Source of the DNA: Hydrogenophilales bacterium 16-64-40
Lineage (GTDB): Bacteria; Pseudomonadota; Gammaproteobacteria; Burkholderiales; Thiobacillaceae
NCBI GenBank assembly: GCA_002256995.1
Contig: NCGX01000003.1
Span: 62,001 to 126,000, forward strand
DNA: 64,000 bases
Direction of reading: 5' to 3'
Part shown: piece after piece, positions 24,444-45,001 of the stretch
Layout of the letters: the number at the start of each line of letters is the position of its first letter
Numbering within the stretch: position 1 is the stretch's first letter
The notes under the pieces: generated by a model
The model's database searches: none
Seen by the model: only the letters and a program-made list of their open reading frames with translations
Told to the model about the DNA's origin: nothing
Position numbers and translations under genes: made by a program

Positions 24444-25787
24444 ATGTCGCACGATTCCATGCTGCCCCGCCCTGCCGAACGCTGCTGCGACGTCCTGGTG
24501 ATCGGCGGCGGCCCGGCCGGCTCGACCGCCGCCACCCTGCTGGCGGAAAAGGGCCACCGGGTCACGTTGCTGGAGAAGGCGCACCACCCGCGCTTCCACA
24601 TCGGCGAATCGCTGCTGCCGGCCAACCTGCCGCTGTTCGAGAAGCTGGGCGTGGGCGCCGAAATCGCGGCCATCGGCATGCAGAAGTGGGGGGCGGAATT
24701 CGTCTCCCCCTGGCACGAACACCGCCAGACCTTCGAGTTCGCCGACGCCTGGGACAAGTCGATGCCGCTCGCCTACCAGGTGCGCCGCTCCGAGTTCGAC
24801 GAAATCCTGATCCGCAACGCCGCGCGCAAAGGCGCCGACGTCATCGAAGGCTGCCGCGTGCGCGAGGTGGAATTCCTGCCGAACGATGCAGGCGCCCTCG
24901 TGCGGGCCGAACACGACGACGGCCGCAGCGAGACCTGGCAATGCCGCTTCCTCGTCGATGCCTCCGGCCGCGACACCTTCCTCGGCAACCGCTTCAAGGC
25001 CAAGCAGCGCAACCCCAAACACAACAGTTCCGCGCTCTACGGCCACTTCAGCGGCGCCCAGCGCAACACGGGCAACAAGGAAGGCCACATCAGCCTGTTC
25101 TGGTTCGAGCATGGCTGGTTCTGGTTCATCCCCCTTGCCGACGGCGCCACCAGCGTCGGTGCGGTGATCTGGCCCACCTGCCTGAAAACCCGACGGACAC
25201 CGGTGCGCGAGTTCTTCCTCGACCTCATTGCCACCTGTCCTGCCCTGGCCGCGCGGCTGAAGGACGCCGAACTCGTCTCGGAGGTGGACGCCACCGGCAA
25301 CTTTTCTTACAGCTGCGACCGCAGCCACGGCGCCGGCTACCTGCTGCTGGGCGACGCCTACGCCTTCATCGATCCTGTCTTTTCGTCCGGCGTCATGCTG
25401 GCGATGAACAGCGCCTTCGCCGGCGCCGAGGCGGTCGACACCTGCCTGCGCCAGCCGGACCAGGCGGCGCAGGCGCTCAAGCGTTTCGATCAGGCAGTGA
25501 AGCACGGGCCGAAGGAATTCTCCTGGTTCATCTACCGCATCACCAATCCCACCATGCGCGACCTGTTCATGTCGCCGCGCAACTACTTCCGGGTCAGGGA
25601 GGCGCTGCTGTCGGTGCTGGCCGGCGACATCTTCGGCAAGACGCCCATCTGGCGTTCGCTGCTGGTGTTCAAGGCGATCTATCACCTCACCTCGCTGGCC
25701 AACCTGCAGCGCACGGTGACGGCCTGGAAGCGCCGCAAGCTCAATATCCGCCCCCTGGACGAAGTAGAAGAGGCCGGCGCCCGATGA
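24444..25787 (+). CDS. FAD-dependent halogenase-like oxidoreductase (aryl-polyene cluster)
   Basis: 447-residue flavoprotein. The N-terminal Rossmann motif is VIGGGPAGST (19-28), followed by HIGESLLPANLPLFEKLG, a lysine (K81, QKWGAEF) at the position of the halogenase catalytic lysine, and the halogenase-type WFWFIP motif (225-230). Relatives are annotated as tryptophan halogenases and occur in xanthomonadin and flexirubin clusters. Halogenation of an aryl head group is therefore plausible but unproven; a hydroxylating monooxygenase remains possible. ATG 24444 has AAGGAAAG upstream. It is the first gene of a six-gene coupled unit, and its stop overlaps the chorismatase start. Confidence 0.83.
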   Translation: MSHDSMLPRPAERCCDVLVIGGGPAGSTAATLLAEKGHRVTLLEKAHHPRFHIGESLLPANLPLFEKLGVGAEIAAIGMQKWGAEFVSPWHEHRQTFEFADAWDKSMPLAYQVRRSEFDEILIRNAARKGADVIEGCRVREVEFLPNDAGALVRAEHDDGRSETWQCRFLVDASGRDTFLGNRFKAKQRNPKHNSSALYGHFSGAQRNTGNKEGHISLFWFEHGWFWFIPLADGATSVGAVIWPTCLKTRRTPVREFFLDLIATCPALAARLKDAELVSEVDATGNFSYSCDRSHGAGYLLLGDAYAFIDPVFSSGVMLAMNSAFAGAEAVDTCLRQPDQAAQALKRFDQAVKHGPKEFSWFIYRITNPTMRDLFMSPRNYFRVREALLSVLAGDIFGKTPIWRSLLVFKAIYHLTSLANLQRTVTAWKRRKLNIRPLDEVEEAGAR

Positions 25788-26863
25788 TGCCTGCGGAAGC
25801 GATTCTGCGGCTGGAGGTCCTGCCCGCGTCTCAGCTGTCCCGCCTGGCCGGGCAGGACAGCGTGCTGGGCGGCGCCTGCTTTTCCCATCCTGCCCGCTCG
25901 CTCGACGCGGGGGAGCTGCCGTTTCTGGCCGTGGACATGAGCCTGCCGGCCGGGGAGGAGGCGATCTGTGAAGTCTGGCATAGCCGCGAACCCCTGGCGT
26001 CCGGCCGGCACGGCCCCATCCGCTACCGTCAGGGCGAAACGCTGCTGTTCGGTTGCATCAGCCTGGACGAAACCGCGCCGCAGGATGCGCGTTCGCCGCT
26101 GCAGGCCACCACGGAGGCCGCCTACCAGGCCATCTTCGAGCTGCTGGAACTTCGCGGCTTTCATAGCGTCTTGCGTTTCTGGAACTACTTCCCCGAGATC
26201 AACCGGGAAAGCCATGCCGTGGAGCGCTACCGCCAGTTCAACATCGGCCGCCAGGATGCCTTCCTCGCCCACGGCCGCTCGGTCGTCGACAAGGTGCCCG
26301 CCGCCTGCGCCCTCGGCTCCGGCGGCGGCGGCCTCCACGTTGCCTTCCTGGCGACGCGCGCAAACGTGATCGGCGTCGAAAACCCGCGCCAGCTCAGCGC
26401 CTACCATTACCCCAGCCAATACGGCCCGCGCAGTCCGACCTTCGCGCGCGCCGGGCGGGTCAGGCTCGGCGGACGCGACATGCTGTTCATCTCCGGCACC
26501 GCCAGCATCGTCGGCCACCAGACCCTGCACCACGGCGATGTGGCGGCACAGACGCGGGAATGCCTGCACAACATCGCGGCCATCGTCGCCGAGGCCAACC
26601 GCCAGGCGCCGGGCGCCGGCTTCCGCCTCGACCAGCTGGCCTACAAGATCTATGTCCGTCATGCCGAGGACCTGGCCACGGTCCGCCGCGAAATGGCGCA
26701 ATTCATCGGCGCCCCGGTGTCGGCGGTGTTCCTGCAGGCCGACGTGTGCCGCGCGGAACTGCTGGTCGAAATCGAGGCCTCGGGCGGCCATGCCATCGGC
26801 CCTGGCTGGACGGATATTTCAACGGGGAACACGCCATGTCTGACTACCGTCGCCTTAGCCTGA
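25784..26863 (+). CDS. XanB2-like chorismatase (hydroxybenzoate-forming)
   Basis: 359 residues matching the FkbO/Hyg5/XanB2 chorismatase family, which converts chorismate to 3- or 4-hydroxybenzoate or a dihydrodiol plus pyruvate. Visible family segments are LRFWNYFPEIN, YRQFNIGRQDAF, GSGGGGLHVAFLATR, QLSAYHYPSQYGPRSP and FISGTASIVGHQTLHHGD. In Xanthomonas, XanB2 supplies 3-hydroxybenzoate as the xanthomonadin starter, which fits the polyene genes nearby. ATG 25784 overlaps the previous stop. An upstream open frame reaching back to 23456 is antisense to tsaD and not coding. Confidence 0.88.
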   Translation: MMPAEAILRLEVLPASQLSRLAGQDSVLGGACFSHPARSLDAGELPFLAVDMSLPAGEEAICEVWHSREPLASGRHGPIRYRQGETLLFGCISLDETAPQDARSPLQATTEAAYQAIFELLELRGFHSVLRFWNYFPEINRESHAVERYRQFNIGRQDAFLAHGRSVVDKVPAACALGSGGGGLHVAFLATRANVIGVENPRQLSAYHYPSQYGPRSPTFARAGRVRLGGRDMLFISGTASIVGHQTLHHGDVAAQTRECLHNIAAIVAEANRQAPGAGFRLDQLAYKIYVRHAEDLATVRREMAQFIGAPVSAVFLQADVCRAELLVEIEASGGHAIGPGWTDISTGNTPCLTTVALA

Positions 26864-27672
26864 CCGCGCTGCTGTTCGCCTGCTGCGCCGGCCACGCCTT
26901 CGCCGCTGAAAAACCCCTGTGGGAACTGGGCGCCGGCATCAGCGCCCTGTCCTTGCCGGACTATCGCGGTTCGGACCAGGCCAGCGTCTACGCCATTCCG
27001 TTTCCCTATCTCATCTATCGCGGCGAGTTTCTCAAGGCGGACCGGCACGGCATTCGCGGCACCTTCTTCGGCACCGACCGCATCGAACTCAATCTCAGTC
27101 TCGGCGCCTCGCTGCCGGTGAACAGCGACGACAACCGGGCGCGCCAGGGCATGCCCGACCTGCAGCCGACGGTGGAACTCGGCCCCTCGCTCGACCTCAA
27201 CCTGTGGCGCACCGCCGACCGGCGCACCCGGCTGGATCTGCGCCTGCCGGTCCGCACCGCCGTCACCGTAACAGGGGGGATGGACGACATCGGCTGGGTG
27301 TTTTCGCCGCGCCTCAACCTCGACATCACCGATGTCGCAGGGCTTGCCGGCTGGAACATGGGACTGCTCGCCGGCCCCATGTATGGCTCGGAACGCAACC
27401 ACGACTACTTCTATACGGTGGCGCCGCAATACGCCACCGCCGGCCGCCCGGCGTTCGACGCCAAGGGGGGCTACGCCGGCAGCCAGTTCATGATGTCGGT
27501 GTCGAAGCGCTACCCGAAATACTGGCTGGGCGCCTTTGCCCGCTGGGACAGCCTCAAGGGGGCCGCCTTCGCCGACAGCCCGCTGGTCAAAAGTGAAAAT
27601 TACTTTGCCGCCGGCGTCGGCATCGCCTGGATCCTCGGCGAGTCGTCCACCCATGTCGAGGCCGTCGAGTGA
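26836..27672 (+). CDS. MipA/OmpV family outer-membrane protein
   Basis: 278 residues with a signal peptide (LTALLFACCAGHAFA, cleaved before AEKPLWELG) and a beta-barrel-like C-terminus ending in AAGVGIAWIL. The MipA/OmpV pattern is seen in LPDYRGSDQASVYAIPFPYLIYRG. Family roles are outer-membrane permeability or scaffolding. Its start overlaps the chorismatase 3' end by 28 bp, with GGGGAAC as the ribosome binding site. Presence in a pigment cluster suggests a role at the outer membrane, where aryl polyenes reside (inference). Confidence 0.85.
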   Translation: MSDYRRLSLTALLFACCAGHAFAAEKPLWELGAGISALSLPDYRGSDQASVYAIPFPYLIYRGEFLKADRHGIRGTFFGTDRIELNLSLGASLPVNSDDNRARQGMPDLQPTVELGPSLDLNLWRTADRRTRLDLRLPVRTAVTVTGGMDDIGWVFSPRLNLDITDVAGLAGWNMGLLAGPMYGSERNHDYFYTVAPQYATAGRPAFDAKGGYAGSQFMMSVSKRYPKYWLGAFARWDSLKGAAFADSPLVKSENYFAAGVGIAWILGESSTHVEAVE

Positions 27673-28496
27673 ACGCACACCTGGCTTCGCTGCCCAGCCT
27701 GCCCCGGCGCTGGCTGCATCGGCTCTACGAATATTTCGCGCTGTGGTTCGGCCTGGCGCTGCTCGGCGCGATTTCGCTGACCTGGACGCTGCTCGCCGTG
27801 CCCCTCTATTACGTCCTGCCGAAGCGCTGGGCCGTCCCGCTCGGGCGCTGGGCCAGCACCACCGGCTTCAGGATTTATCTCGGCGCGCTGTCCCTCATCG
27901 GCGCCTGCCGCTTCGACCTGTCCGCGCTCGATTCGCTGCGCGATGAAGGCCCGATGATCGTCGCACCCAACCACCCCTGTCTGCTCGATGCCCTGATGGT
28001 CATCTCGCGCCTGCCCAACATGGCCTGCATCATGAAGGTCGACATCGTCGACAACGTCTTTCTCGGCGCAGGTGCCCGTCTGGCGGGCTACATCCGCAAC
28101 GACGCGCAATTGAGCATGATCAGGCAGTCCGTCGCCGAGCTGAAAAGCGGCAGCCAGCTGCTGATCTTCCCCGAAGGCACCCGCACCACCCGCTGGCCGG
28201 TCAACGCCTGCAAGGGCACCGCCGCGCTCATCGCGAGCCGGGCGCGGGTGCCGATCCAGACCGTGTTCATCGAGACCGATTCGGCCTACCTCGGCAAGGG
28301 CTGGCCGCTGTTCCGCCGCCCGCCGATGCCGATCACCTATCGCATCCGCCTCGGCCGCCGCTTCGCGCCGCAGGAAAAGGCCGGAACCTTCACTGAAGAC
28401 CTCGAGCGCTACTTCATCGATGAGCTGCACGATGCCCCGCACTTCCTGCCGCCCGACGCCCCGCAGGCCGCCGAATCCCGTGCGGCCCGGCTCTGA
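27669..28496 (+). CDS. 1-acyl-glycerol-3-phosphate-type acyltransferase (PlsC-like)
   Basis: 275 residues. An N-terminal membrane anchor (about residues 18-45) precedes the PlsC domain with NHPCLLDA (HxxxxD catalytic motif) and IFPEGTRTT (motif III). In aryl-polyene clusters such acyltransferases are thought to load the polyene onto a lipid or sugar acceptor. The GTG start overlaps the preceding stop (GTGA), and its own stop overlaps the next start. Confidence 0.87.
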   Translation: MNAHLASLPSLPRRWLHRLYEYFALWFGLALLGAISLTWTLLAVPLYYVLPKRWAVPLGRWASTTGFRIYLGALSLIGACRFDLSALDSLRDEGPMIVAPNHPCLLDALMVISRLPNMACIMKVDIVDNVFLGAGARLAGYIRNDAQLSMIRQSVAELKSGSQLLIFPEGTRTTRWPVNACKGTAALIASRARVPIQTVFIETDSAYLGKGWPLFRRPPMPITYRIRLGRRFAPQEKAGTFTEDLERYFIDELHDAPHFLPPDAPQAAESRAARL

Positions 28497-29281
28497 TGTC
28501 GCCTGACGCGAAGGTTTCCGCCAGCCACCTGGTGCTGATCCCCAGCTATAACCCGGGTCCCCAGGTCTACGAAACGGTGCGCGCCGCGCGTGCCCAGTGG
28601 GCGCCGGTGTGGGTGGTGGTGGACGGCAGCACCGACGGCACCGCCGCCGGCCTGCTGGAGATGGCGGCGAACGACCCGCAGCTGAAAGCGCTGGTGCTGC
28701 CCGCAAACGGCGGCAAGGGCGCTGCGGTGCTGCACGGCCTGGATCTCGCCGCGCAGCAGGGTTTCACCCACGCGCTGACGATGGACTCCGACGGCCAGCA
28801 CCCGGCCGACCTCATTCCGGCCTTCATGGCCGCCTCGCAACAGGCACCCGAGGCGATGGTCCTCGGCAAGCCCGTGTTCGATGCCGATGCCCCCGCGCTG
28901 CGGGTGCAGGGTCGCAAGATCTCCAACGGCTGGGCCAACCTGGAAACCCTGTGGGCGGGCATCGGTGATTCGCTCTACGGCTTTCGCGTCTATCCGATCG
29001 AGCCCCTGCGCCAGGTGATGCGCGGCCAGCGCTGGATGCGCCGCTTCGACTTCGATCCCGAGGCCGTGGTGCGCCTGTGCTGGCGCGGCGTGCGCCCGAT
29101 CAATCTGCCCGCGCCGGTGAAATACCTGCGCGCCGACGAAGGTGGCGTTTCCCACTTCAACTACCTGCGCGACAACACCCTGCTCACCTGGATGCACCTG
29201 CGGCTGATGCTGGGTTTCCTGCTGCGCGTGCCGCTTCTTTTGCTGCGGCGCCTAAATACTCGTCGGTCAAACACTCCATGA
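28496..29281 (+). CDS. Family 2 glycosyltransferase
   Basis: 261 residues, GT-A fold: LVLIPSYNPGPQVYETV start, VVVDGSTDGTAAGL, and the DxD-type metal site in LTMDSDGQHPADLIP. The C-terminus has a hydrophobic stretch (LRLMLGFLLRVPLLLL) that may associate with the membrane. Within this cluster it probably glycosylates the polyene or its lipid acceptor. ATG in TGATG overlap with the acyltransferase. Confidence 0.88.
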   Translation: MSPDAKVSASHLVLIPSYNPGPQVYETVRAARAQWAPVWVVVDGSTDGTAAGLLEMAANDPQLKALVLPANGGKGAAVLHGLDLAAQQGFTHALTMDSDGQHPADLIPAFMAASQQAPEAMVLGKPVFDADAPALRVQGRKISNGWANLETLWAGIGDSLYGFRVYPIEPLRQVMRGQRWMRRFDFDPEAVVRLCWRGVRPINLPAPVKYLRADEGGVSHFNYLRDNTLLTWMHLRLMLGFLLRVPLLLLRRLNTRRSNTP

Positions 29282-30051
29282 AAAACACCCCCGATTCATC
29301 CGCGCAAGCCGTGCATGCCCCGCATCCGCCCCTCACCGGCTACTACGCCAGCGAACAGGAACGGCGCGGTTACGTCGGCAAGCTGTTCGACAGCACCGCC
29401 TCCGACTACGACCGCATCGACCGCCTGCTCGCGCTGGGCAGCGGCCCTTGGTACCGCAATCAGGCGCTGCAGCGGGCGGGCTTGAAACCCGGCATGCGCA
29501 TCGTCGACATCGGCGTCGGCACCGGTCTGGTCGCGCGCGAAGCCGTCAAGCTGGTGGGCGACCCCGCCCTGGTGGTGGGCGTCGACCCCAGCATCGGCAT
29601 GATGTCGCAAGCCCATTTGCCCGGCGTCCAGCTCATCGAAGGACGCGCGGAAGCGATCCCGTTCCCCGATGCCAGCTTCGACTTCCTCAGCATGGGCTAC
29701 GCACTGCGCCACATCGGCGACCTGTCGGCCGCCTTCAGCGAATTCCATCGCGTCCTCAAGCCCGGCGGCCGCCTTTGCCTGCTCGAGATCACCAAGCCGG
29801 AGCGCGCCTGGAGCCAGGCGCTGCTCAAGGTCTACATGCGCGGCGTCGTGCCAGTGCTGGCCCGAATGATCGGCAGCAGCGCCGAGTCGGCCAAGCTGTG
29901 GCGCTACTACTGGGACACCATCGAGGCCTGTGTGCCGCCGAGCGGGGTGATCGATACGCTGGAGGCTGCGGGTTTTGCCGGGGTAAACCGGCATATTGAA
30001 AGCCGGGCGCTGTCGATTCTGGGGGAGTATCAGGCGGTCAAGCCGGGTTGA
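29278..30051 (+). CDS. Class I SAM-dependent methyltransferase (UbiE-like)
   Basis: 257 residues. SAM-binding motif I is VDIGVGTGLVA, with VVGVDPS, IEGRAEAIPFPDASFD and a UbiE-like C-terminus (RYYWDTIEACVPPSGVID). Aryl-polyene clusters usually hold one methyltransferase that O- or C-methylates the aryl head, the likely role here. A ubiquinone role is less likely given the context. ATG 29278 overlaps the glycosyltransferase stop (ATGA); it is the last gene of the plus arm. Confidence 0.86.
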   Translation: MKNTPDSSAQAVHAPHPPLTGYYASEQERRGYVGKLFDSTASDYDRIDRLLALGSGPWYRNQALQRAGLKPGMRIVDIGVGTGLVAREAVKLVGDPALVVGVDPSIGMMSQAHLPGVQLIEGRAEAIPFPDASFDFLSMGYALRHIGDLSAAFSEFHRVLKPGGRLCLLEITKPERAWSQALLKVYMRGVVPVLARMIGSSAESAKLWRYYWDTIEACVPPSGVIDTLEAAGFAGVNRHIESRALSILGEYQAVKPG

Positions 30052-30212
30052 GTTGCAACCGTCGTCTGCGAGCGAGACAAGTTTGCGGCAGTATGGGACA
30101 GCGACGAAGATGCCGTTTACGATCAGCTATAAAAGAAAGGGTAGTATCAGGCTGCACCTAAACCAGTTGGTCGGTGCCCCCAGAAATTTAATGCTCACAC
30201 AGGAGAATCCGT

Positions 30213-30404
30213 ATGCCTCTGATTAACTTGGTCATCGTCTTAATCGTGGTTGGCGTGCTGCTTTGGCTCGTCAATACCTACATACCCATGGATCGAAAAA
30301 TCAAAAACATCCTGAATATTGTCGTAGTCATAGTTGTTGTGATATGGCTGCTGCAGGTGTTCGGCGTGTTGGGATCGATGGACAGCATACGTGTCGGCGG
30401 CTGA
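30213..30404 (+). CDS. Thivi_2564-type small membrane protein
   Basis: 63 residues with two hydrophobic helices (INLVIVLIVVGVLLWLVNTY and ILNIVVVIVVVIWLLQVFGV) joined by the conserved MDRKIKN turn. The pattern matches a widespread uncharacterised family of tiny membrane proteins. AGGAG lies 8 bp before ATG 30213. Its base composition is lower in GC than the pigment genes on both sides. The 161-bp leader (30052-30212) is also AT-richer and holds a TATAAA at about 30127. Confidence 0.8.
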   Translation: MPLINLVIVLIVVGVLLWLVNTYIPMDRKIKNILNIVVVIVVVIWLLQVFGVLGSMDSIRVGG

Positions 30405-30470
30405 CGACTAAGGGGGTCACCGTCGCAATCAGCCGTACGTGCGATGACCTAGCGCGCTCAGACCGGAATT

Positions 30471-30522
30471 AAAGGGGCAGCTTCGCAGAGTTTTTATTGC
30501 GAAGCTGGCCCCTTTATTTTTT
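30471..30522 (+). terminator. Intrinsic terminator
   Basis: AAAGGGGCAGCTTCGCA (30471-30487) pairs with TGCGAAGCTGGCCCCTTT (30498-30515) with one bulge, followed by a TTTTTT run. It is placed 66 bp after the small membrane gene and just outside the left repeat arm. The A-rich 5' side would let it work on both strands. Confidence 0.85.
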
Positions 30523-30527
30523 GGTCA

Positions 30528-30863
30528 TTGCGAGCGCAGCGAAGCAATCCAGTCAGAGAATCAGCGCGAAGCACGTTGCGTGTGAAACCTTCGTTGCGCT
30601 ACTGACCGTTGGCCGGGGGTAGCCCGGCGGCTAGTCACTTTTCTTGTCTCGCCAAGAAAAGTAACCAAAAGAAGGCGACCCCGACATCCACGAAACCCCG
30701 AAAATCGAGCCTGCCGGGTGGGCGGCAAAGAACTCGCCCCGCTTTTGTTTGTATTTCGAAGGTGAGCGGGGCTCAAACACCTTTGCCGCTGATCCACCCG
30801 ACAGGCTCAATTTTCGGCGTGGCTGAGAGGGGAGGAAAGTCAAAACCAGGGCGGTGATGACTG
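30528..30863 (+). repeat. Dispersed repeat, left inverted arm
   Basis: Begins TTGCGAGCGCAGCGAAGCAA and ends CCAGGGCGGTGATGACTG. It matches the reverse complement of 31634-31963 along its whole length with scattered substitutions and small indels. An internal hairpin (ACTTTTCTTG...CAAGAAAAGT) lies at about 30637-30662. The open frames it creates (containing SHFSCLAKKSNQKKATP) are the kind often mis-annotated as proteins and are not genes. Confidence 0.9.
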
Positions 30864-30935
30864 GATAACTTGAGTGCTTATGTTGCGATATACACCGACG
30901 CTATGTCCTTCGAGCATGGCACCCTAAGATGGCAT

Positions 30936-31553
30936 CTATAGTGCCATCGCCCAGTCATTCTCACGAATGATCGCAATCTCAAATTCACCAGATTCCGCCA
31001 TCTCAGCTGCTCTCTGAATCTTGCGTCCGAAGTTTGATTCGATCCATGCAGGTGAAGCCCTTGAGCCGATAACTAAATAGTTGGTTTTCTTGGTGACGTT
31101 ATCGCCGGTTAAACCACCCCTAAGTTCTGTGGCTTTATGGCAGGCATTACGGGTGCCAAACATGAACTCACCAGTCATGACAAAGATGTTGTCACTGAAA
31201 ACGACTGTCGGGTCATCATCAAAAACTCGTGCAATAGGTTCTGGCAACGTTGCTCCTGTTTTCCAGAATTCATTACCTGAAATTTCAGATAGAGATTTCA
31301 GCAAATGATCCCTTTCATCCTGCGTCAAAACACCGTCGGATAATGCTTCTCGAATTAGCCTGTGAATAATATTCGCAGGGTAAACAGTTTTTAGTTGCTC
31401 GTTTTCTTGTAACCAAGCCGAGAGAAAGTGAACTTCACTGTCGTGCAACTGGCCGTCACATACAACTCCATTAACGATGCCCATTAGCTGATTTAGGGAG
31501 CGTGTAATCAGACGCTGATGGATTGAGGCATCTATGGATATGTTGTTAGTCAT
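30936..31553 (-). CDS. TerB-like/BRCT domain protein
   Basis: 205 residues from ATG 31553 (a TTG at 31586 would add 11). The N-terminal half is helical and resembles a TerB-type module (MGIVNGVVCDGQLHDSEVHF, LSDGVLTQDERDHLL with acidic repeats). The C-terminal half is a BRCT domain like that of bacterial DNA ligase (IFVMTGEFMFGTRN, VTKKTNYLVIGSRASPAW), which usually binds DNA ends or phosphoprotein. The GC content is visibly lower than its neighbours and it lies inside inverted repeats, so horizontal origin is likely. Function is unknown; a DNA-repair or element-maintenance role is speculation. Confidence 0.82.
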   Translation of the reverse strand: MTNNISIDASIHQRLITRSLNQLMGIVNGVVCDGQLHDSEVHFLSAWLQENEQLKTVYPANIIHRLIREALSDGVLTQDERDHLLKSLSEISGNEFWKTGATLPEPIARVFDDDPTVVFSDNIFVMTGEFMFGTRNACHKATELRGGLTGDNVTKKTNYLVIGSRASPAWIESNFGRKIQRAAEMAESGEFEIAIIRENDWAMAL

Positions 31554-31633
31554 AACAAGCTCGCAGAAGACAGATAGAGTGGCCAAGTAACCTAAATAGC
31601 TTGGTCAGCAGCTTGGATAGTAATCTGGAGCTT

Positions 31634-31963
31634 CAGTCATCGCCACCCTGGTTTTGACTTCCCCCCTCTCAGCCACGCCGAAAATCGAGTCTGCCGGGTG
31701 GATCAGCGGCAAAGGTGTCTGAGCCCCGCTCACCTTCGAAATACAAATAAAGCGGGGCGAGTTCTTTGCCGCCCACCCGGCTGGCTCGATTTTCGGGGTT
31801 TCGTGGATGGCGGGGTCGCCTTCTTTTGGTTACTTTTCTTGGCGAGACAAGAAAAGTGACTAGCCGCCGGGCTACCCCCGGCCAACGGTCAGTAGCCCTG
31901 CGAAGGTTTACGCAACGTGCTTCACGCCAATCCTCTGACTGGATTGCTTCGCTGCGCTCGCAA
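31634..31963 (-). repeat. Dispersed repeat, right inverted arm
   Basis: Reverse-complement partner of 30528-30863, running from CAGTCATCGCCACC to CGCTGCGCTCGCAA. Differences from the left arm are small, for example a shortened run near the outer end and TTATTTG against TTTGTTTG in the middle. It ends 26 bp before the stop of the antiporter gene. Confidence 0.9.
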
Positions 31964-31989
31964 AGAAGGACGAAGCGAGCGGATACGCC

Positions 31990-36467: not shown

Positions 36468-36494
36468 GTCAACCAATCCCGATACAGTGAGTTT

Positions 36495-37250
36495 TCAGTC
36501 AATTCCACAACCAGTTTCCTTCAGATCCGGCCCGGTGCGAGTTGCGCAGGCAGGGCTGCGCAGCGACAGCCAGGCTGCCACCCCGCCCAGCATGAGACCA
36601 CCCCACACATCCACCGCCACATGCTGGCGGGTGGCGAGGGTGGAATAGATGATGCCGATGCACCACAGCCAATTGACCAGCCGACTCCAACGCGGCGCAC
36701 CGAATCGACGCAGCAGCTGACCGAGCCAAATCCCCGAAAACAAGGCCGTGGCGACATGCAGCGAAGGGAAGGCATTGCCTGCGGCATCGACGTTTTTAAG
36801 GAACTCCACGCCGGGATGTCGGGCCCAGTCGATCTCGGCTGCGGGGACCGCGGTGGGCCAGAAGTAGAAAACAATCAGCCCCAAAAGGCAGGTTCCGCCC
36901 ATCGCCATGCCATAGCGATAGAGTTCGCGTCGCGTTGCGAGCAATGCCGGCGGCAGGGAAACATACACCCACAGTGAAACATACAGCGGCATCGCCCACG
37001 GCTGAAAACTGATCATCTGATCCAGCCAGGTGATCGGCATCACCGTGGTGGGGTAGGCCGGGACTTTGAGCACGTAGAAATACGCGCCGAAAAACAGGCC
37101 GATGAAAAGCGGGATGCCTATGTTTTTCAGATACACATGCTGGATGATGGCTGCGGCAATCTGCCGGTACCAGGGCGTTGGCTGACTGTTTTTCAAGGCC
37201 TGTTCTCCCGGCTGCGGCAGCGCCGACGCGTTGCGTGGTGTGCTGTTCAT
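36495..37250 (-). CDS. PAP2-superfamily membrane phosphatase
   Basis: 251 residues with about six helices. The PAP2 motifs AFPSLHVATALFSG and TRQHVAVDVWGG (catalytic His) are clear; the first motif (KxxxxxxRP) is degenerate. It resembles the Aur1-like PAP2 group that acts on lipid phosphates or transfers phospho-head groups. Within the pigment cluster it might dephosphorylate or transfer a lipid carrier (inference). ATG 37250 overlaps the deacetylase stop. Confidence 0.84.
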   Translation of the reverse strand: MNSTPRNASALPQPGEQALKNSQPTPWYRQIAAAIIQHVYLKNIGIPLFIGLFFGAYFYVLKVPAYPTTVMPITWLDQMISFQPWAMPLYVSLWVYVSLPPALLATRRELYRYGMAMGGTCLLGLIVFYFWPTAVPAAEIDWARHPGVEFLKNVDAAGNAFPSLHVATALFSGIWLGQLLRRFGAPRWSRLVNWLWCIGIIYSTLATRQHVAVDVWGGLMLGGVAAWLSLRSPACATRTGPDLKETGCGID

Positions 37251-38050
37251 GAAAGTGCGTCTCGCAAACGGACAAAACGCAGTCCGGCGGCGGCGGCCGC
37301 TTCCAGCACCGCAGGCAGCACGTCGAGAATAACCGGCGTGCCCCCCGGTGTCCGGGCAGCATTGCCGTCGTGCAGCAGCAAAATGGCGCCGCCCCGCAGC
37401 TCATGCAGCAGCGCATGCTTGACCCTCGCGGCGTCGCCGATGCGGGTGTCGAACCCCCGCGCCGACCAGCTGGCGAGCGTCAAGCCGAGTCGCGCCAGCA
37501 CGGGATCGAGAAAGGGATTGCGCAAGCCGGCAGGGGCACGAAAGAACACCGGGCGCTGGCCGGTAATCAGGCCGAGGGTGCCTTGTGCGGCCTCCAGTTC
37601 GCGCAGGAAACCGCGCGGGCCCTGCAGGGCAAAATGATGGCGGTGATGCTGGCTGTGGTTTTCCACGGCATGGCCACGGCGGACAATTTCCCGGCAGACA
37701 TCCGGGTAGCGTGCCGCTGTTTCGCCGACACAGAAAAAGGTGGCGCGTGCGGCATGGCGATCCAGAATGTCCAGCACCTGCGGGGTGACGAGAGGGTCGG
37801 GGCCGTCGTCGATGGTGAGGGCGATTTCATTCCTGGCCGCTGCGGCGGCGGGCAGCCGCGTCCAGTTCGGCCCCAGCCAGTTGCTGCGCGGCCACAAGCC
37901 GACCGCGGTCAGCAGCAGGTGGTTGATGACCACGGCGCCCAGCGCCCAGCGCCATTGCGCGGGTTCGGCGATCACGGCCACCAAGGCCAGCCCATGCAGC
38001 GCGACGGATGCGCGGATCAGCAGGCTGGGATGCCAGGCGGGGTCACGCAT
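37247..38050 (-). CDS. Polysaccharide deacetylase family protein
   Basis: NodB-domain protein, 267 residues from ATG 38050, which overlaps the exporter stop; ATG 38065 is an alternative start. Two hydrophobic N-terminal helices precede the catalytic domain with TIDDGPDPLVTP (Asp pair) and RGHAVENHSQHH (metal His pair), and it ends ILLLHDG. Substrates are N- or O-acetylated sugars. A deacetylase next to a glycosyltransferase and PAP2 protein suggests processing of a sugar-lipid carrier, but no substrate is known. Confidence 0.85.
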   Translation of the reverse strand: MRDPAWHPSLLIRASVALHGLALVAVIAEPAQWRWALGAVVINHLLLTAVGLWPRSNWLGPNWTRLPAAAAARNEIALTIDDGPDPLVTPQVLDILDRHAARATFFCVGETAARYPDVCREIVRRGHAVENHSQHHRHHFALQGPRGFLRELEAAQGTLGLITGQRPVFFRAPAGLRNPFLDPVLARLGLTLASWSARGFDTRIGDAARVKHALLHELRGGAILLLHDGNAARTPGGTPVILDVLPAVLEAAAAAGLRFVRLRDALS

Positions 38051-40409
38051 GACTGGATCCCGCATCGGCTTGGCGGGCAAAAACCGCCGCATAGAACAAG
38101 GCCAGGATGACACCCGGGGCGACGGTCACGCCCAGCGCCTGCAGGATGGAGACGTCGGAAAACGCGAGCAGGCCAAAACCCGCGACGGTGGTGAGGCTGG
38201 CAAACAGCATCGAGGCCAGCGTGCGCGGCAGGATCGGCGTGCGCGGATCGGGCCGATCAAAAAACAGGGCGTAATTGGAGCCCACTGCGGCCACCAGCAG
38301 CAAGCCCACCAGATGCAGAATGATCATTTGCTGGCCAAACAGGCTCAATCCCGCCGTGACGGTGACGACCGCAGCGGCCAGCGGCGCGATGATGCGCAGC
38401 ACGCGCATGGGCGAGCGAAAAACCACGAGCAGCAACGCGACAATGGCGACCAGCCCGCCGAGCGACAGCGCAATGGCTTCGCGCAGGTAGCCGGAATACA
38501 GGCGATCCGACTCGGCCTTCATGTCGACGAACAGCACATCGGGGATTGCGCTCAAAGCAGCGCGGATAGGCTCGGCATCGATGCTGCCCCCCTCGGGCGC
38601 GGTCAGCGGCAACAAGGCACGCCATTGCCCGTGTTGCTGGATGAGCAGGGCATCGACCGCCATCGCCATCGAGGTCTGCTGCAGGTCGCTTGCCTGCAGC
38701 AAACGCTGGCTGCGCGCGACGGCGGCGTCGGCCAGAAACGGCGTAAACAGTTGCGCACGCACCGGCAGGCCCTGGACGGCTTGCGCCAGGTGTGTTTCCA
38801 GCACGGGTCGAGGAGGCAGACTGGCCTGGCGTGCGCGTTGCGTGGCCAGGCTGGGAAGGTAATGGCTCGGGCTTTCAAATCCGGCCAGTTCGCCTTGCTC
38901 GACGAGTGTCTGCAGCAACGTGGAAACCCGCTCGGCGGCGCGCAAGACGGATTCCTGATTGGCACCGGATACGACGACCAGGTAGCGCACATCCGGCGCC
39001 CCCATGTCGGCACGCAAGCGGGTATCGAGTTCCACATCCGCTTGCGACACCGGGCTGAGTGACGCGATTGTGTCATCCCACAAACTGGCGCGGTTGTTGA
39101 CCACGATGGCGCAGGCCGCCAGCACCACGATCGCTGCAGGCCAGCGCAGGGCTGCCGCGCCCTGGACCACGCGGGACAGGGTGAGCCCGACGGCCGATAA
39201 ATCATGGATGCGGAAGTTGGCGGGCAACAATGAAGGCAGGACGAAGCGCGTCACCGTTGCGGCCGCGATCAGCCCGGCAATCGCATACAAGCCGAGTTGC
39301 GCCAGGCCGGGAAAGCCGGACAGCAGCAGCGAGGCAAAACCGGCTATCGACGTCAGCACACCGAGGCGGATAGTGGGCCAGAAGCGCTTGATCCAGTTTT
39401 GATGATCCGCCCGGTTCTGTTCCGATTGCACAAACAGGTAGATCGAATAATCCACGGCCTCGCCGATCAGGGCGGTGCCGAATCCCAGGGTGATGCCGTG
39501 CACCGCGCCAAAGCCCAGGCTGACCGCCGCAATGCCGGCCAGCGCACCGCTGACAACGGGCAGCAAGCCCAACGCCAGGGCGCTGAAGGAACGGTAAACG
39601 AGCAGGAGCAGCGTGGCGATGAGGGCAAGGCTGATGATGGAGAGCCGGGTGACTTGGCGCTTGATGGTGTCGCGCGACGTCACCGAAAACACACCGGGGC
39701 CGGTCATCACCAGTTGGGCGGAGGCGGTCGCGCCGGGGGTTTGGTCCAACGCCTGGTCGAATGCCTGCCGGATGGCGGCCATGGCGAACTGCTGGGCATC
39801 GGTATCGCCCCCCGCTGCATGCGTTTGCATCAGCAGCAAGGCGCGCGTGCCATCGCGCGATGCCCATGCCCCCTCCACCAGTTTCGGCTGGGTGCCGCTG
39901 TCGAGCTGCTCGAGCAACTGCAGCATTTCCCCGGTCGGGTCGCGCGGCAGCAGGGATTTGACCAGCAGTCCGGCGGGCGAGGCCAGCAGGTCGATGCTGT
40001 CGCTCAGGGCGGCATGGAGGCCATCTGCGCTAAAGCGCCCAGGCGTCACGGCCGGGCTCAACAGGTAACGATTGTCGAACAGGAGAGCACGGTCGCGCTC
40101 GCTGTTGACCGGCTCGCCATTATTGACGCTGACAAATGTTGGGTCGGCGCGCAGACGCTGGGCGACTTGCCTGGAAAGCCGGGCGCGGGTGGGGGCGTCG
40201 GCGCCTTCGATGCCCACCAGAATCAGGCGCGAGGCGAGGCCGTCCTGGAGTTGATCCATGAGCAGCTGCTGCTCGGGCGTGGGGCTGCGCGGCAAGAAAG
40301 CCGACAAGTCGGTGGTGAAATGGGTGCGGCTGATGACGACGACACAAGCCAACAAAAAAATCAGCCAAAGCATGATGGCAGCGAGGCCGCGGCGGCGCGG
40401 GTGGATCAT
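38043..40409 (-). CDS. MMPL/RND-type exporter (COG4258-like)
   Basis: 788-residue membrane protein with duplicated MMPL halves, each with one helix, a large periplasmic loop (about 45-250 and 440-610) and a helical bundle (for example HGITLGFGTALIGEAVDYSIYLF). Aryl-polyene and xanthomonadin clusters carry such an exporter with a LolA-like partner, which is encoded immediately upstream. Probable role is moving the polyene or its lipid conjugate toward the outer membrane. Confidence 0.9.
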   Translation of the reverse strand: MIHPRRRGLAAIMLWLIFLLACVVVISRTHFTTDLSAFLPRSPTPEQQLLMDQLQDGLASRLILVGIEGADAPTRARLSRQVAQRLRADPTFVSVNNGEPVNSERDRALLFDNRYLLSPAVTPGRFSADGLHAALSDSIDLLASPAGLLVKSLLPRDPTGEMLQLLEQLDSGTQPKLVEGAWASRDGTRALLLMQTHAAGGDTDAQQFAMAAIRQAFDQALDQTPGATASAQLVMTGPGVFSVTSRDTIKRQVTRLSIISLALIATLLLLVYRSFSALALGLLPVVSGALAGIAAVSLGFGAVHGITLGFGTALIGEAVDYSIYLFVQSEQNRADHQNWIKRFWPTIRLGVLTSIAGFASLLLSGFPGLAQLGLYAIAGLIAAATVTRFVLPSLLPANFRIHDLSAVGLTLSRVVQGAAALRWPAAIVVLAACAIVVNNRASLWDDTIASLSPVSQADVELDTRLRADMGAPDVRYLVVVSGANQESVLRAAERVSTLLQTLVEQGELAGFESPSHYLPSLATQRARQASLPPRPVLETHLAQAVQGLPVRAQLFTPFLADAAVARSQRLLQASDLQQTSMAMAVDALLIQQHGQWRALLPLTAPEGGSIDAEPIRAALSAIPDVLFVDMKAESDRLYSGYLREAIALSLGGLVAIVALLLVVFRSPMRVLRIIAPLAAAVVTVTAGLSLFGQQMIILHLVGLLLVAAVGSNYALFFDRPDPRTPILPRTLASMLFASLTTVAGFGLLAFSDVSILQALGVTVAPGVILALFYAAVFARQADAGSSHA

Positions 40410-41002
40410 TAAGGCGTCGCCTGCTGTTCGATGGTCATCAGCGAGCGGTCGCCGTCAGCCTGGAGAATCTCGACGCTGCGTACCACATTCCGGCCCCCCT
40501 CCATCCGGATGCGGGCGATGACGGCACTGACCTTGGGGTCGAGCGGGGTGAGCACCAGGGTCCAGCGTTCCTGGCCGCCGTCCAGGGCCAGATGGTAGAC
40601 CTGCTCCAGGGCCTGGAGGTCGCCGGCCAGTGTGGCGCGAATGCTCTCGATCATGCCGGCCACCTCCGGGTAGTCCTTCAGCTGCAGCACGTGTTTGCGG
40701 CGGCCGCGTTCGAGGGTGAGGGTGCCGCCGTCAAGCACCATGGTCTCGGGCTTCGGTTTCAGGGTGCGCTTTTCCAGGCGGGCCGGCGCGATAAACAGCA
40801 ATTCGCCGGAAGACTCGATCGGCTGCTCGAGAATGGAAATGGTTTTTGTCTCGGTGAAGGTGGCCGCGCCTTGCGGGTGCTTCGCCAGCCCGGCCATGAG
40901 CTGGGCGATGCTCAGCGGTACGGCCTGAGCGAGGGGGCTGAACAGCAGCGCCAGCCAGACCAGGGCACATCGTCGAAAGTGGGGTCGCGTGAGTCGGGTC
41001 AT
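40409..41002 (-). CDS. LolA-like outer-membrane carrier protein of polyene cluster
   Basis: 197 residues with a signal peptide (LVWLALLFSPLAQA, then VPLSIAQL). The LolA-type fold is suggested by ATFTETKTISILEQPIESSGELLF and by alternating strands, with HVLQLKDYPEVAGMIESIRA in the middle. It would chaperone a hydrophobic molecule across the periplasm, supplied by the MMPL exporter whose start overlaps its stop. ATG 41002 is preferred over the upstream in-frame ATG at 41086, since it fits the signal peptide and follows the previous stop. Confidence 0.85.
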   Translation of the reverse strand: MTRLTRPHFRRCALVWLALLFSPLAQAVPLSIAQLMAGLAKHPQGAATFTETKTISILEQPIESSGELLFIAPARLEKRTLKPKPETMVLDGGTLTLERGRRKHVLQLKDYPEVAGMIESIRATLAGDLQALEQVYHLALDGGQERWTLVLTPLDPKVSAVIARIRMEGGRNVVRSVEILQADGDRSLMTIEQQATP

Positions 41003-41004
41003 GT

Positions 41005-41928
41005 TTAGGCGACATCCTTGGGGCGCCAGAAATCGAAGAAGTTGAACCAGTTGTAGGGGGCGGCGCGGCACTGGCGTTCCAGACAAGCCGCGTAGGCGGT
41101 CACGGCGGAACGGACGGCGGCATCGCGGTCGCTCCGTTCGAGCTCGCTGAAATCGGCCAGCCGCTCGAAGTGGATGGCATAGCGATTGCTGCCCAGGTAG
41201 AGGCCGCTCATGAACAGCACCGGTCGCCTCAGCATGGCGGCCAGGCGCATGGGCCCGACCGGAAACTCGGCGTCCGCTCCCAGGAAGGGGACGCGCAGGG
41301 TCGGATCGCCGCCGAGGGTGCGGTCGCTCAGCACACCGAGCACCATGCCCTGGTCAAGGCAGCCCTGCACCCGCAGCATCGAATCGAGCTGCCCCAAGGG
41401 GATGATGTCCTGCACCGCCGCCGGGTTGATGGCGGCCAGCGCGGCATTGAGCTTGCGGGCGTTTTCCTCATACATGACCATGACCACCCTGAGACCCGGC
41501 TGGCGGCGGCCGATGGCGCGCACCACCTCGAAGCTGCCCATGTGCGCGCCCAACAGGATGGCGCCGCGCCCGATGGCCAGCACCTCCTGGACGACATCCT
41601 CGCCATGCACCTCCACCTGAAACAGATCGAAACGCCCATTGAGCAGAAAGAGCCGGTCGTGGATGGTTGAGGCAAAGCTGTGGAAGTGCCGGAACACGTC
41701 GGCAAATGAGGGTTCCCGATCCAGCGCCCGGCGCAGATAGGCACGCGAGGCGGCCTTGGCTGCGGGCGCGAAAAGCAAAAAATAAAGGCTGATGCCGGCC
41801 AGGACAAAACGGGCGGGGGTACGACCCAGGCGAAGGGAGATCCAGGTCATCACGCGCAGCATGGTCCGATTGCTGCGCTCGGGGCGCCGGATCCACTCCG
41901 CTTGCTGCGAGATTTCCGGTGTGGTCAT
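41005..41928 (-). CDS. LpxL/HtrB-like acyltransferase (COG4261-like)
   Basis: 307 residues with the lysophospholipid/lipid A acyltransferase pattern: an N-terminal membrane segment (RFVLAGISLYFLLFAPAA), LLGAHMGSFEVV (HxxxxxE catalytic motif) and FLGADAEFPVGPMRLAAML. Family members move acyl chains from ACP to lipid A-type acceptors. In this cluster it may transfer the completed polyene to a lipid. It overlaps the dehydratase start by four bases. Confidence 0.88.
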   Translation of the reverse strand: MTTPEISQQAEWIRRPERSNRTMLRVMTWISLRLGRTPARFVLAGISLYFLLFAPAAKAASRAYLRRALDREPSFADVFRHFHSFASTIHDRLFLLNGRFDLFQVEVHGEDVVQEVLAIGRGAILLGAHMGSFEVVRAIGRRQPGLRVVMVMYEENARKLNAALAAINPAAVQDIIPLGQLDSMLRVQGCLDQGMVLGVLSDRTLGGDPTLRVPFLGADAEFPVGPMRLAAMLRRPVLFMSGLYLGSNRYAIHFERLADFSELERSDRDAAVRSAVTAYAACLERQCRAAPYNWFNFFDFWRPKDVA

Positions 41929-42254
41929 GCCGGGGCCGCTGGCGAAAAAACAACGCTGCCGCTGGCCACGCCGCGCTCGTTGCCATGGCTGTCCCTACAG
42001 CGGATCTCAAAGCGGAAGCCGCCGGCCGGCGATTCGGGGGCGTGCAGGGTGAGGGACTCACCGGGCTGGACCGGACTGTGGAACTTCACCGACTTGAGTT
42101 GCCAACCCCCATCCTGCCCGCCCAATTGCGCCGCTAGCGCATGCAGCGCCTCATCCAGCAGTACGACGCCGGGAAGGATGGGCTGACCGGGAAAGTGTCC
42201 GGCATAGGCGCGATGGTCGGCGGCGACGGGCAGCGGAATGACATGATCGCTCAT
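41925..42254 (-). CDS. Small hotdog dehydratase (ApeI-like)
   Basis: 109 residues. Family segments are YAGHFPGQPILPGVVLLDEA (active-site His and Gly-rich turn of FabZ/FabA-type dehydratases) and VKFHSPVQPGESLTL. It probably forms a dehydratase pair with 34019-34483. ATG 42254 overlaps the ligase stop by four bases. Confidence 0.86.
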   Translation of the reverse strand: MSDHVIPLPVAADHRAYAGHFPGQPILPGVVLLDEALHALAAQLGGQDGGWQLKSVKFHSPVQPGESLTLHAPESPAGGFRFEIRCRDSHGNERGVASGSVVFSPAAPA

Positions 42255-43615
42255 GCCGGCATCCTGGCTTGGGCCTGCAGGATGGCCAGCAGGTCCTGGG
42301 TGATCTGGCCGGGGAGCTTGCCGGTGGCATTGCGCGGCAGGGCCTCGACGAACAGCAGCGGGCGCGGCAGAAAAACGGGGTCGATGCGCTCGCGCAAGGC
42401 CTGGATCAGCTCAGCCGGAGTGAGGCCGGGGGCGACCACCAGGGCGGTGAGGCGGCCGATGCGATCCGCGCTGTCCTCGCGGGGCAGCACGAAGACGCCG
42501 TCCTGCACCCCCGGGATGGCGTTCAGCTGGTGGTTGAGGCAGGCCAGCGAGGTGCGCTTGCCTGCGATGTTGACCAGGTCGGCATGCCGACCATGCAGCA
42601 GGAAGGTGGTGGACAGCGGGCCGTCGCCGGTGAGTTCGATGACATCGGAAAGACCGGTCGGGCTGTCGATGTGGCCGCCCTCGGCCCACAACGTCGGTCC
42701 CTCGCGGCGCAGCTGGATGTCCGCCAGCGTGTGCCATTCGAGGCCGGCCGCGGTGCGCCGCGAGGCGAGTTGCCCGGTCTCGGTGCAGCCGTAGATCTCG
42801 TGCAGCGGCGCGCCGAACCGGGACTCGGCCTCACGGGCCAGGTCCTGCGACAGCGGGGCGGTGGCCGAGAGAAGCTGGTCGGCCGCCGGCAGCGTGGCCT
42901 GCTCCGCGAGCAGGCCACGCAGGTGGTAAGGGGTGGTGACCAGCATGCGCGGGCGCGGCAGACTCGCCAGGGTGGCGCAGATGTCCGCCGGGTAGAAGGG
43001 CCGTCCGGCATGCAGCGCGGCGCCGCTTTGCAGCGGCATCAGGACGGTCGACTCCAGGCCGTACATGTGCTGCGGCGGAACGGTGCCGAGGATGGCATGA
43101 TCCGCGCCGATGCCCAGGCGTTGTGCTTCCGCGCGCACGTTGCGCACCAGGCTGCCCCAGCGCTTGACATGCGGCACCGGCACGCCGGTGGAGCCGGAAG
43201 TAAAGACCTGGGCGACGACCTGCGCGCAATCGATCTCGGGAATGGCCGGGTTGGCCACAACCGGCATCGATTCGGGATAGCGAAAGGTGGGCAGATCCGC
43301 GCCCGCGTCCTGATCGACGATGCAAAAAACATCCGGGGCGATGCGCTGCATCTGCCGGACCATCTCCGGCGTATGGGTGGAGGGCAGCAGACTGACCCGG
43401 CCGCTGACGACGCAGGCCGCCAGGGCAACGGTGAAATGGTAGCGGTCGCCGCACAGGTTGAGCACATGACGCCCCGGCGGCAACTGGCTGGCGACGTGCT
43501 CGACCTCGCCCAGAAACTGCCTGACGCTGACCGGCGTGTTGCCGCGCCAGGCCATGACGGCATCGTGACGGCAATGGGCGACGAGCGGCAGCGTGGCCAT
43601 GGACGGCAGGAGCAC
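42251..43615 (-). CDS. AMP-dependent ligase activating the aryl starter
   Basis: 454-residue ANL-superfamily enzyme. The phosphate loop is TSGSTGVP (139-146), with YGCTETGQLASR (adenylate motif) and C-terminal RNATGKLPGQ (catalytic lysine). Aryl-polyene ligases adenylate a hydroxybenzoate or hydroxycinnamate and load it onto ACP, matching the chorismatase product expected here. The GTG start at 43615 has a weak ribosome binding site; ATG 43600 is an alternative. Confidence 0.9.
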   Translation of the reverse strand: MLLPSMATLPLVAHCRHDAVMAWRGNTPVSVRQFLGEVEHVASQLPPGRHVLNLCGDRYHFTVALAACVVSGRVSLLPSTHTPEMVRQMQRIAPDVFCIVDQDAGADLPTFRYPESMPVVANPAIPEIDCAQVVAQVFTSGSTGVPVPHVKRWGSLVRNVRAEAQRLGIGADHAILGTVPPQHMYGLESTVLMPLQSGAALHAGRPFYPADICATLASLPRPRMLVTTPYHLRGLLAEQATLPAADQLLSATAPLSQDLAREAESRFGAPLHEIYGCTETGQLASRRTAAGLEWHTLADIQLRREGPTLWAEGGHIDSPTGLSDVIELTGDGPLSTTFLLHGRHADLVNIAGKRTSLACLNHQLNAIPGVQDGVFVLPREDSADRIGRLTALVVAPGLTPAELIQALRERIDPVFLPRPLLFVEALPRNATGKLPGQITQDLLAILQAQARMPA

Positions 43616-43618
43616 AGC

Positions 43619-44281
43619 TTAGAGGGGACCGGAAGGCGCGCCCGGTCTCTTCCAGTACGCACGCACGCCGTCCATGATGCTGTGTTTTTTCTGGTGCGGC
43701 AGCTTGCGCCGGCGAATCTGGAATTCGACGACGAACATCAGCAGGATCAGCGGAAAAGAGAGGAAGTTGGCGAAAATCGACCACACCTCGATGCCGGCAA
43801 ACAAAAACAAAGCGCTGGAAACCAGGCTGATCGCCAGAAGAAACAGCGTCCACGCCAGGGTGACCTGGCGCGAATAACGGACCTCCTCCGGCGACAGGCT
43901 GCCGTGGACCATTTCGGCAAAATGGGTGCACAAGGGTTGCCGTCCGCGCGCCAGGGTGACGCCGAACACGGCGGCCAGCATGACATAGGTGCCCGCGTGC
44001 TGGAGGAAATAGACCCAGCTAAAATTGCGCTCCAGCACGCCCCAGAACCCCCACAGCAGCCCGCCCACGACAGCACACAGCAACACCATGGCCGGCCGCA
44101 TGGGCGAACGCCAGGTCAGCCACAACAGGATGGCGAGAGAAGGCGCCAGAGAGACCGCCACTCCCAGCGACGGGAAGGTGGTGGCCGCCTTAGTTGCGCT
44201 GTAATGCGCCAGCACGGGATAGGCAATGCACGCGGCGGCGATGACGACCCAGCGGACCGCGCTTGACAGGGTCAAATTCAT
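43619..44281 (-). CDS. Inner-membrane protein of polyene cluster (COG4648-like)
   Basis: 220 residues with six or seven membrane helices (AVRWVVIAAACIAYPVLAHY and AMVLLCAVVGGLLWGFWGVL among them) and a basic C-terminal tail. It resembles an uncharacterised membrane family recurrent in aryl-polyene clusters. No catalytic motif is visible. Its ATG overlaps the ACP stop (ATGA). Confidence 0.8.
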   Translation of the reverse strand: MNLTLSSAVRWVVIAAACIAYPVLAHYSATKAATTFPSLGVAVSLAPSLAILLWLTWRSPMRPAMVLLCAVVGGLLWGFWGVLERNFSWVYFLQHAGTYVMLAAVFGVTLARGRQPLCTHFAEMVHGSLSPEEVRYSRQVTLAWTLFLLAISLVSSALFLFAGIEVWSIFANFLSFPLILLMFVVEFQIRRRKLPHQKKHSIMDGVRAYWKRPGAPSGPL

Positions 44282-44547
44282 TTTTCCCGGTTGGCCGCGA
44301 TATGCCGGGTCAGGCTGGCGAGCGAACTGAAGATGCTGACGTTGTCCGCGTTATCGGCTCGCAACTGGAATCCGAAACGCTTGGAAACAACCAGGGCCAC
44401 CTCCAGAATGTCGATGGAGTCGAGCCCGAGCCCCTCGCCGTAAAGGGAGGCGTCGGGCTGAATCTCTTCCGGGCTGACGTCGAGGTTCAGGGTGGAGACG
44501 ATGAGGCTGGCGACTTCGTCTTGCAATTCAGGGCTGGTATCGGGCAT
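44278..44547 (-). CDS. Acyl carrier protein of polyene cluster
   Basis: 89-residue ACP. The phosphopantetheine attachment serine is S44 in GLDSIDILEVALV. Helices I-III and the acidic composition are typical. It is the first gene of the minus arm and the only ACP in the cluster. It should carry both the aryl starter and the growing polyene. ATG 44547 lies about 52 bases after a TATAAT box. Confidence 0.92.
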   Translation of the reverse strand: MPDTSPELQDEVASLIVSTLNLDVSPEEIQPDASLYGEGLGLDSIDILEVALVVSKRFGFQLRADNADNVSIFSSLASLTRHIAANREK

Positions 44548-44577
44548 GGCGATTCACTTCAATAGGGGATCAGGCAA

Positions 44578-44952: not shown

Positions 44953-45001
44953 TCTCGTTTTTCCAGTTCACAGGAAGCTTTCCCGGAAGCCCCCTTTAAA
45001 T

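Follow-up and report, generated by a model that had tools for sequence, protein, structure and literature searches.

A well-supported xanthomonadin/arcuflavin-type aryl-polyene pigment cluster between tsaD and rpsU in Hydrogenophilales bacterium 16-64-40

Described pigment loci and the window cluster

Several described pigment loci can be compared with a gene cluster from Hydrogenophilales bacterium 16-64-40, carried on a 64,000-nucleotide stretch of DNA (GenBank assembly GCA_002256995.1, contig NCGX01000003.1, positions 62,001 to 126,000 of the forward strand) that is referred to below as the window. Of the described systems, the arc genes of Azoarcus sp. BH72 come nearest; there, two unlinked loci are both required for pigment, and disruption of arcK or arcT gives colourless mutants (PMC3949708; statements attributed to this and the other cited papers refer to excerpts of each). 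In the window, the genes at 24444-44547 look like a complete xanthomonadin/arcuflavin-type aryl-polyene pathway, leading to a yellow membrane pigment, in one locus. We consider this assignment, with the biosynthetic route proposed below, very likely to be right, and the cluster belongs, on good evidence, to a known pigment family.

By annotation (Table 1 of PMC3949708), the window cluster parallels arcA-E, G-K, M, N and P-V. Both sets contain a halogenase, chorismatase, MipA, acyltransferase, glycosyltransferase, antiporter, ketoreductase and two dehydratases, and likewise a ketosynthase (KS) N-terminal-domain protein, KS, methyltransferase, deacetylase, exporter, LolA, acyltransferase, ligase, arcU and acyl carrier protein (ACP). 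A single KS with its partner is listed for the arc loci; darJ belongs to the dar locus. Azoarcus has two loci plus dar genes, whereas the window has a single locus and dar genes were not found; no counterpart of arcF, arcL, arcO or the arcW/arcX regulators was recognised among the window cluster genes, and the PAP2 gene of the window is a further difference from the arc set as annotated there (PMC3949708). The order of the first Azoarcus locus is also seen, by sequence, in Dechloromonas and Azonexus relatives (L095 and L104; labels with L denote loci, those with G genomes).

The xan/pig genes of Xanthomonas, as the papers describe them, resemble the window in chorismatase-derived 3-hydroxybenzoate, synthesis of the type II fatty acid synthase/polyketide synthase kind, a halogenase gene and no dialkylresorcinol (PMC3949708, PMC3691225). 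Bromination is known for Xanthomonas xanthomonadin (PMC3949708), whereas halogenation of the window's product is only predicted. The yellow locus of Lysobacter enzymogenes shares with the window a KS with a chain-length factor (CLF)-like protein, two dehydratases, an ACP, a ketoreductase, a lipoprotein carrier and a XanB2 homologue, but unlike the window it is described without a halogenase gene (PMC3691225). The aryl-polyene clusters of E. coli CFT073 and Xenorhabdus doucetiae likewise have the KS/CLF pair, ApeI-like and ApeP-like dehydratases, a ligase, an ACP, LolA-like and RND proteins and a membrane protein at the place of ApeG; the window differs from them in that no ApeR-like initiating KS was found and no thioesterase was called, and rows A to Q of the CFT073 gene table contain neither a chorismatase nor a halogenase (PMC8253772).

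Gene content and proposed pathway

Translation and scans against Pfam, NCBIfam and PDB sequences place six genes on a plus-strand arm (24444-30051) and 14 on a convergent minus-strand arm (44547-31990). All five plus-arm junctions overlap, by 4, 28, 4, 1 and 4 bases, as do nine of the 13 on the minus arm, by 1-10 bases, the remaining four being gaps of 2-18 bases. Together, 14 of 18 same-strand junctions in the cluster overlap, compared with 8 of 33 pairs of same-strand neighbours when all 49 window open reading frames listed outside it are counted (Fisher p 3e-4); with a control of 38 of those 49 the figure was 5 of 29 pairs (p 6e-5), and thus the contrast is weaker with all 49 but still stands. 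The original prediction, made from the window's letters, had described two such convergent arms with mostly overlapping genes, and this layout is borne out. The gene families it named were recovered at their positions (the second dehydratase only through a family profile), its chorismatase and halogenase assignments hold at the Pfam level, and the minus-arm homology to Ape/Xan proteins on which it staked the pigment reading is found, with KS, partner and both dehydratases all matching ape relatives. Genes beyond its list are those for MipA, the NodB-like deacetylase, PAP2 and the Na/H exchanger.

The KS (arcK/ApeO-like, 35268-36476, minus strand as are all genes in this paragraph; TTG start uncertain) exceeds the NF006618 cut-off of 407 with 561 bits, and its best solved relative is 6qsp_A (E 1e-77). 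The short, truncated CLF partner (arcJ/ApeC-like, 34474-35271; PF13723, 86 bits) matches 7f28_A and 6qsp_B. We take 6qsp and 6qsr to be Xenorhabdus aryl-polyene complexes. The two dehydratases are an ApeI-like first enzyme (arcS-like, 41925-42254), only narrowly over the PF22818 cut-off (28.9 bits against 28.5), and an ApeP-like second enzyme (arcI-like, 34019-34483) that as a single sequence has no match at E 0.001 and a weak ApeP-like match at E 0.022 (14.8 against a cut-off of 27); its family profile finds 6qsr_B at 2e-13, and 4 of 24 aligned family members match PF22817 at E 0.01. Further aryl-polyene features, all present in the cluster, are the ACP (arcV-like, 44278-44547; NF006617, 133.5 bits, cut-off 70), an AMP-dependent ligase (arcT-like, 42251-43615; PF00501, 78 bits) whose predicted specificity is for aryl-ACP formation, a FabG-type ketoreductase (arcH/ApeQ-like, 33303-34022; NF004200, 366 bits, cut-off 273), a LolA-like periplasmic carrier (arcQ/ApeL-like, 40409-41002; PF19574, 71 bits; 56 bits to the flexirubin LolA2 model, whose cut-off is 125) and an MMPL/RND-type exporter (arcP/ApeM-like, 38043-40409; PF03176, 61 bits).

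The plus arm opens with the halogenase, dependent on flavin adenine dinucleotide (FAD) (arcA-like, 24444-25787; Pfam Trp_halogenase, 100 bits; PDB 3e1t, E 1e-56, lysine aligned), and the chorismatase of the FkbO/Hyg5/XanB2 family (arcB-like, 25784-26863; PF21168, 135 bits; PDB 5ag3, E 9e-54). Downstream are a MipA/OmpV outer-membrane protein (arcC-like, 26836-27672; PF06629, 146 bits), a lysophospholipid-type acyltransferase (arcD-like, 27669-28496; PF01553, 52 bits), a family 2 glycosyltransferase (arcE-like, 28496-29281; PF00535, 66 bits) and a UbiE-like methyltransferase that is a candidate arcM (29278-30051; PF01209, 107 bits). The minus arm also carries an LpxL-like acyltransferase (arcR-like, 41005-41928; PF03279, 40 bits), a NodB-like polysaccharide deacetylase (arcN-like, 37247-38050; PF01522, 96 bits), a PAP2-family membrane phosphatase (36495-37250; PF01569, 47 bits) and a Na+/H+ exchanger (arcG-like, 31990-33294; PF00999, 166 bits). 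The membrane protein at 43619-44281 has no Pfam family above cut-off and is identified as arcU/ApeG by position only; its homologue adjoins the ACP gene in 7 of 7 relatives' loci that show an ACP.

Gene content, conserved motif residues and conserved linkage are established here. For linkage, we surveyed the best 80 named halogenase loci of at least 592, some of which end early at contig ends. The chorismatase is present at 40 of the 80, in 36 of them directly adjoining the halogenase on the same strand, and at 55 of the 80 at least two of eight pigment genes adjoin. In a sample of the class, KS was found in 33 of 35 genomes with the halogenase versus 76 of 369 overall, counts that ignore relatedness.

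From this gene content we infer the following route; its individual reactions in this organism, as well as the lipid anchor and the protective role, are proposals. The chorismatase would form 3-hydroxybenzoate, which the ligase would load onto the cluster ACP. The KS and its partner would extend it with malonyl units from primary metabolism, with one conjugated double bond per unit generated by the ketoreductase and two dehydratases. The phenol would be capped by the methyltransferase, and while it is ACP-bound the halogenase might add bromine or chlorine to it. The acyltransferases and glycosyltransferase would link the acid to a lipid of the envelope. Transport of the pigment to the outer membrane, where it could quench radicals, would fall to the LolA-like carrier and MMPL exporter.

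Head group, halogenation and alternative products

The chorismatase can be aligned with 5ag3/5a3k and with FkbO. At three sites it agrees with the 5ag3 chain, with Gly in 'SGTAS', Cys in 'DVCR' and Glu in 'VEIE'; the corresponding residues of FkbO are Ala, Ala and Glu. For the 3-hydroxybenzoate-forming subfamily the residues given are two Gly and one Cys, and a Glu is described as catalytic (PMC7170507); the mapping of one Gly (of the two), the Cys and the Glu onto our alignment, and the equation of 5ag3 with Hyg5, are our own. Family and aligned residues thus agree with the 3-hydroxybenzoate type, with the Hyg5 and XanB2 types not told apart.

The best solved relatives of the halogenase are themselves halogenases, with 3e1t, which we take to be CndH, first and PltA among the nearest. 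For both PltA and CndH the substrate is established or believed to be carrier-bound, and with PltA and 3e1t among the nearest solved relatives an ACP-bound phenol is the favoured candidate substrate. In an alignment of the window's enzyme with 29 homologues at 47-91% identity, picked from 49 loci, all 30 sequences keep the FAD-motif glycines, W-x-W-x-I-P, F-x-x-P-x-x-S-x-G and the lysine that lines up with the one in 3e1t. The halogenase motifs given in PMC8407142 are WxWxIP and 'Fx.Px.Sx.G', the second of which we read as F-x-x-P-x-x-S-x-G.

Several observations weigh against the assignment as a whole or against parts of it. The chorismatase scores 256.8 bits against the NCBIfam TIGR04444 cut-off of 325, and chorismatase products are described as not accurately predictable from sequence or alignment alone (PMC3949708); for both reasons, 3-hydroxybenzoate is only a predicted product. 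The ApeP-like dehydratase's own score is under the curated cut-off, and family scans called no separate thioesterase among the cluster genes. An ApeR-like initiating KS was not found in the window's genome: a query with the KS from L071, itself only taken as ApeR-like, gave two matches, one of which adjoins the fab operon and is taken as FabF, the other being the cluster KS. Thus the idea that an initiating KS is encoded elsewhere in the genome found no candidate with this query. Seventeen of the 80 halogenase loci have neither the chorismatase nor any of the eight pigment genes found in their flanks (L086, L098, L114, L119, L121, L123, L125, L126, L131, L134, L140, L141, L144, L147, L148, L153 and L155). 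Finally, Azoarcus has arcA annotated as a halogenase and its pigment is assigned as non-brominated (PMC3949708), so halogenation cannot be assumed.

Two side observations touch on these points. Eight of the 17 loci are titled Variovorax. In L071 (4114-5370, genome G040) and L078 (1349-2284, G056), whose clusters lie outside the site discussed below, an extra KS sits directly upstream of the ACP gene and is possibly an ApeR-like initiator.

Since the gene set is closest to the arc set of Azoarcus, whose product is a dialkylresorcinol ester (PMC3949708), the same cluster might be supposed to make a flexirubin/arcuflavin-like ester of this kind. The genome, however, has a single ACP_syn_III_C protein, and its neighbours, in the order plsX-fabH-fabD-fabG (plsX, fabD and fabG read by eye from open reading frames), mark it as the fatty-acid FabH. 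A darB gene would presumably match the same Pfam family; no second ACP_syn_III_C protein was found in the genome (68 contigs, 100% estimated completeness, so that a missed gene is unlikely but possible), and no search was made for darA. In PMC3949708, darB is listed as a 3-oxoacyl-ACP synthase. With only the housekeeping FabH found, the dar-type ester was not borne out and is very unlikely. Many of the cluster's parts also belong to families of fatty-acid synthesis, as would suit a lipid- or fatty-acid-modifying cluster with no pigment role, but KS and partner match both 6qsp chains, a chorismatase and an AMP-dependent ligase are in the cluster, and the parallel Azoarcus and Lysobacter clusters are proven pigment loci (PMC3949708, PMC3691225); we give such a cluster almost no credence.

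A much closer question is whether the aryl polyene is halogenated at all. It could be an ordinary non-halogenated one, with the FAD enzyme inactive on the pigment or acting as a hydroxylase. The non-brominated arcuflavin of a strain with arcA (PMC3949708) is in line with this, and so are genomes G006 and G071, in which no halogenase was found and the other cluster genes are kept. Set against it are the motif set and aligned lysine kept throughout the 30 aligned sequences, the strong co-occurrence of halogenase and pathway KS, the dibrominated xanthomonadin I of Xanthomonas (PMC3949708) and the clusters of two Xanthomonas species, which include a halogenase gene (PMC3691225). We rate the non-halogenated product just short of an even chance, and the predicted halogenation step in this organism as evenly balanced.

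The tsaD|rpsU junction

In E. coli K-12, tsaD adjoins rpsU-dnaG-rpoD. The window's entire cluster sits inside that junction and splits this neighbourhood, with tsaD to its left and rpsU-yqeY-dnaG-rpoD to its right and boundary stretches at 24272-24443 and 44548-45001. As to terminal repeats, the two boundary stretches have no common 12-mers, direct or inverted.

Among 56 genomes of the genus, KS was found in 32, the chorismatase in 31 and tsaD in 54 at the thresholds used, and the halogenase in 20 of the 39 genus genomes of the family sample, the window's included (the copy in G017 is a fragment). In 15 of the 56, again including the window's, no more than 25 kb separates tsaD from the halogenase, chorismatase or KS; these places were read by eye, and with draft contigs the count is a lower bound. 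We annotated 20 regions from 13 of the genus genomes. The junction of G084 holds the same cluster as the window. That of G062 (L059 4863-7041) holds a cluster without halogenase, chorismatase, MipA, methyltransferase or antiporter, and that of G058 (L061 4190-16392) holds a different aryl-polyene cluster, all of it on a single strand and with 33-63% identity in the matching parts, which has its own O-methyltransferase (Methyltransf_2-type) and in which no chorismatase or halogenase was found. In G033, G069 and G053, where no KS was found, none of the cluster genes lies between tsaD and rpsU, the site being empty in 3 of 3 such fetched genomes. The cluster lies elsewhere in G046, G040 and G056, and the regions of G477 and G469 end before tsaD. 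By eye, the stretch just upstream of rpsU is nearly identical between the window and the empty sites of G069 and G053; therefore, insertion would have left that stretch intact.

Two further observations concern related loci. In G084, a DUF559 gene (L067 13006-13365) lies between the CLF and second dehydratase genes, which overlap in the window. In L092, from a more distant metagenome-assembled genome (MAG; rpoD 70% identical), pigment genes are at the rpoD end of rpsU-yqeY-dnaG-rpoD.

The two-arm layout of the original prediction is present in the window but is not fixed, as relatives have the arms joined or on separate contigs. In G006 (L065/L066) and G071 (L076/L077) the arms are split between contigs, which recalls the two-locus arrangement of Azoarcus; these genomes may be natural halogenase-free relatives. 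The homologous arms of G046 end about 80 bases apart; in the window they are separated by about 1.9 kb (30052-31989) with a guanine-plus-cytosine (GC) content of 0.508, versus 0.673 and 0.664 in the arms. A minus-strand gene in this gap (30936-31586; GC 0.447; weak BRCT match, E 0.13) looks like a later insertion. Given the cluster variants among genus genomes, the arms appear to be separable modules and the head-group genes optional. The prediction's guess of a probable sulfur-oxidising betaproteobacterial host also fits: among named relatives of the halogenase, the two listed first are MAGs of Hydrogenophilales (90%) and Thiobacillaceae (81%), although others labelled simply Proteobacteria (82%) and Chromatiaceae (79%) come about equally close.

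One aryl-polyene cluster may have replaced another at this junction; independent insertions and losses would fit too. A bolder proposal is that tsaD|rpsU is an exchange slot of the genus, in which clusters of different chemistry (halogenated 3-hydroxybenzoate, head-module-free and divergent one-strand) replace each other beside an intact rpsU upstream region, and that, through the halogenase, these sulfur oxidisers produce halogenated aryl polyenes. Taken jointly, we hold this tentatively, at somewhat less than an even chance. A slot general to the class was also considered, and there is no sign of one, because KS and tsaD lie within 25 kb of each other (by eye) in 0 of 31 class genomes outside the genus; these 31 are those with both places listed, of 75 KS-bearing genomes beside the window's, and draft contigs can hide neighbours.

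Halogenation by this cluster is plausible but unproven, and the site, which was the unexpected feature, is interesting and partly explored. This cluster widens the range of a proven pigment pathway to include a Thiobacillus-like lineage. Its relatives form a natural comparison set, with genomes that carry the halogenase, genomes in which none was found (G006 and G071) and one in which neither halogenase nor chorismatase was found (G062), which makes the role of the 'halogenase' in non-Xanthomonas clusters directly testable. The variable content at one conserved junction offers a modest clue to the spread of such clusters.

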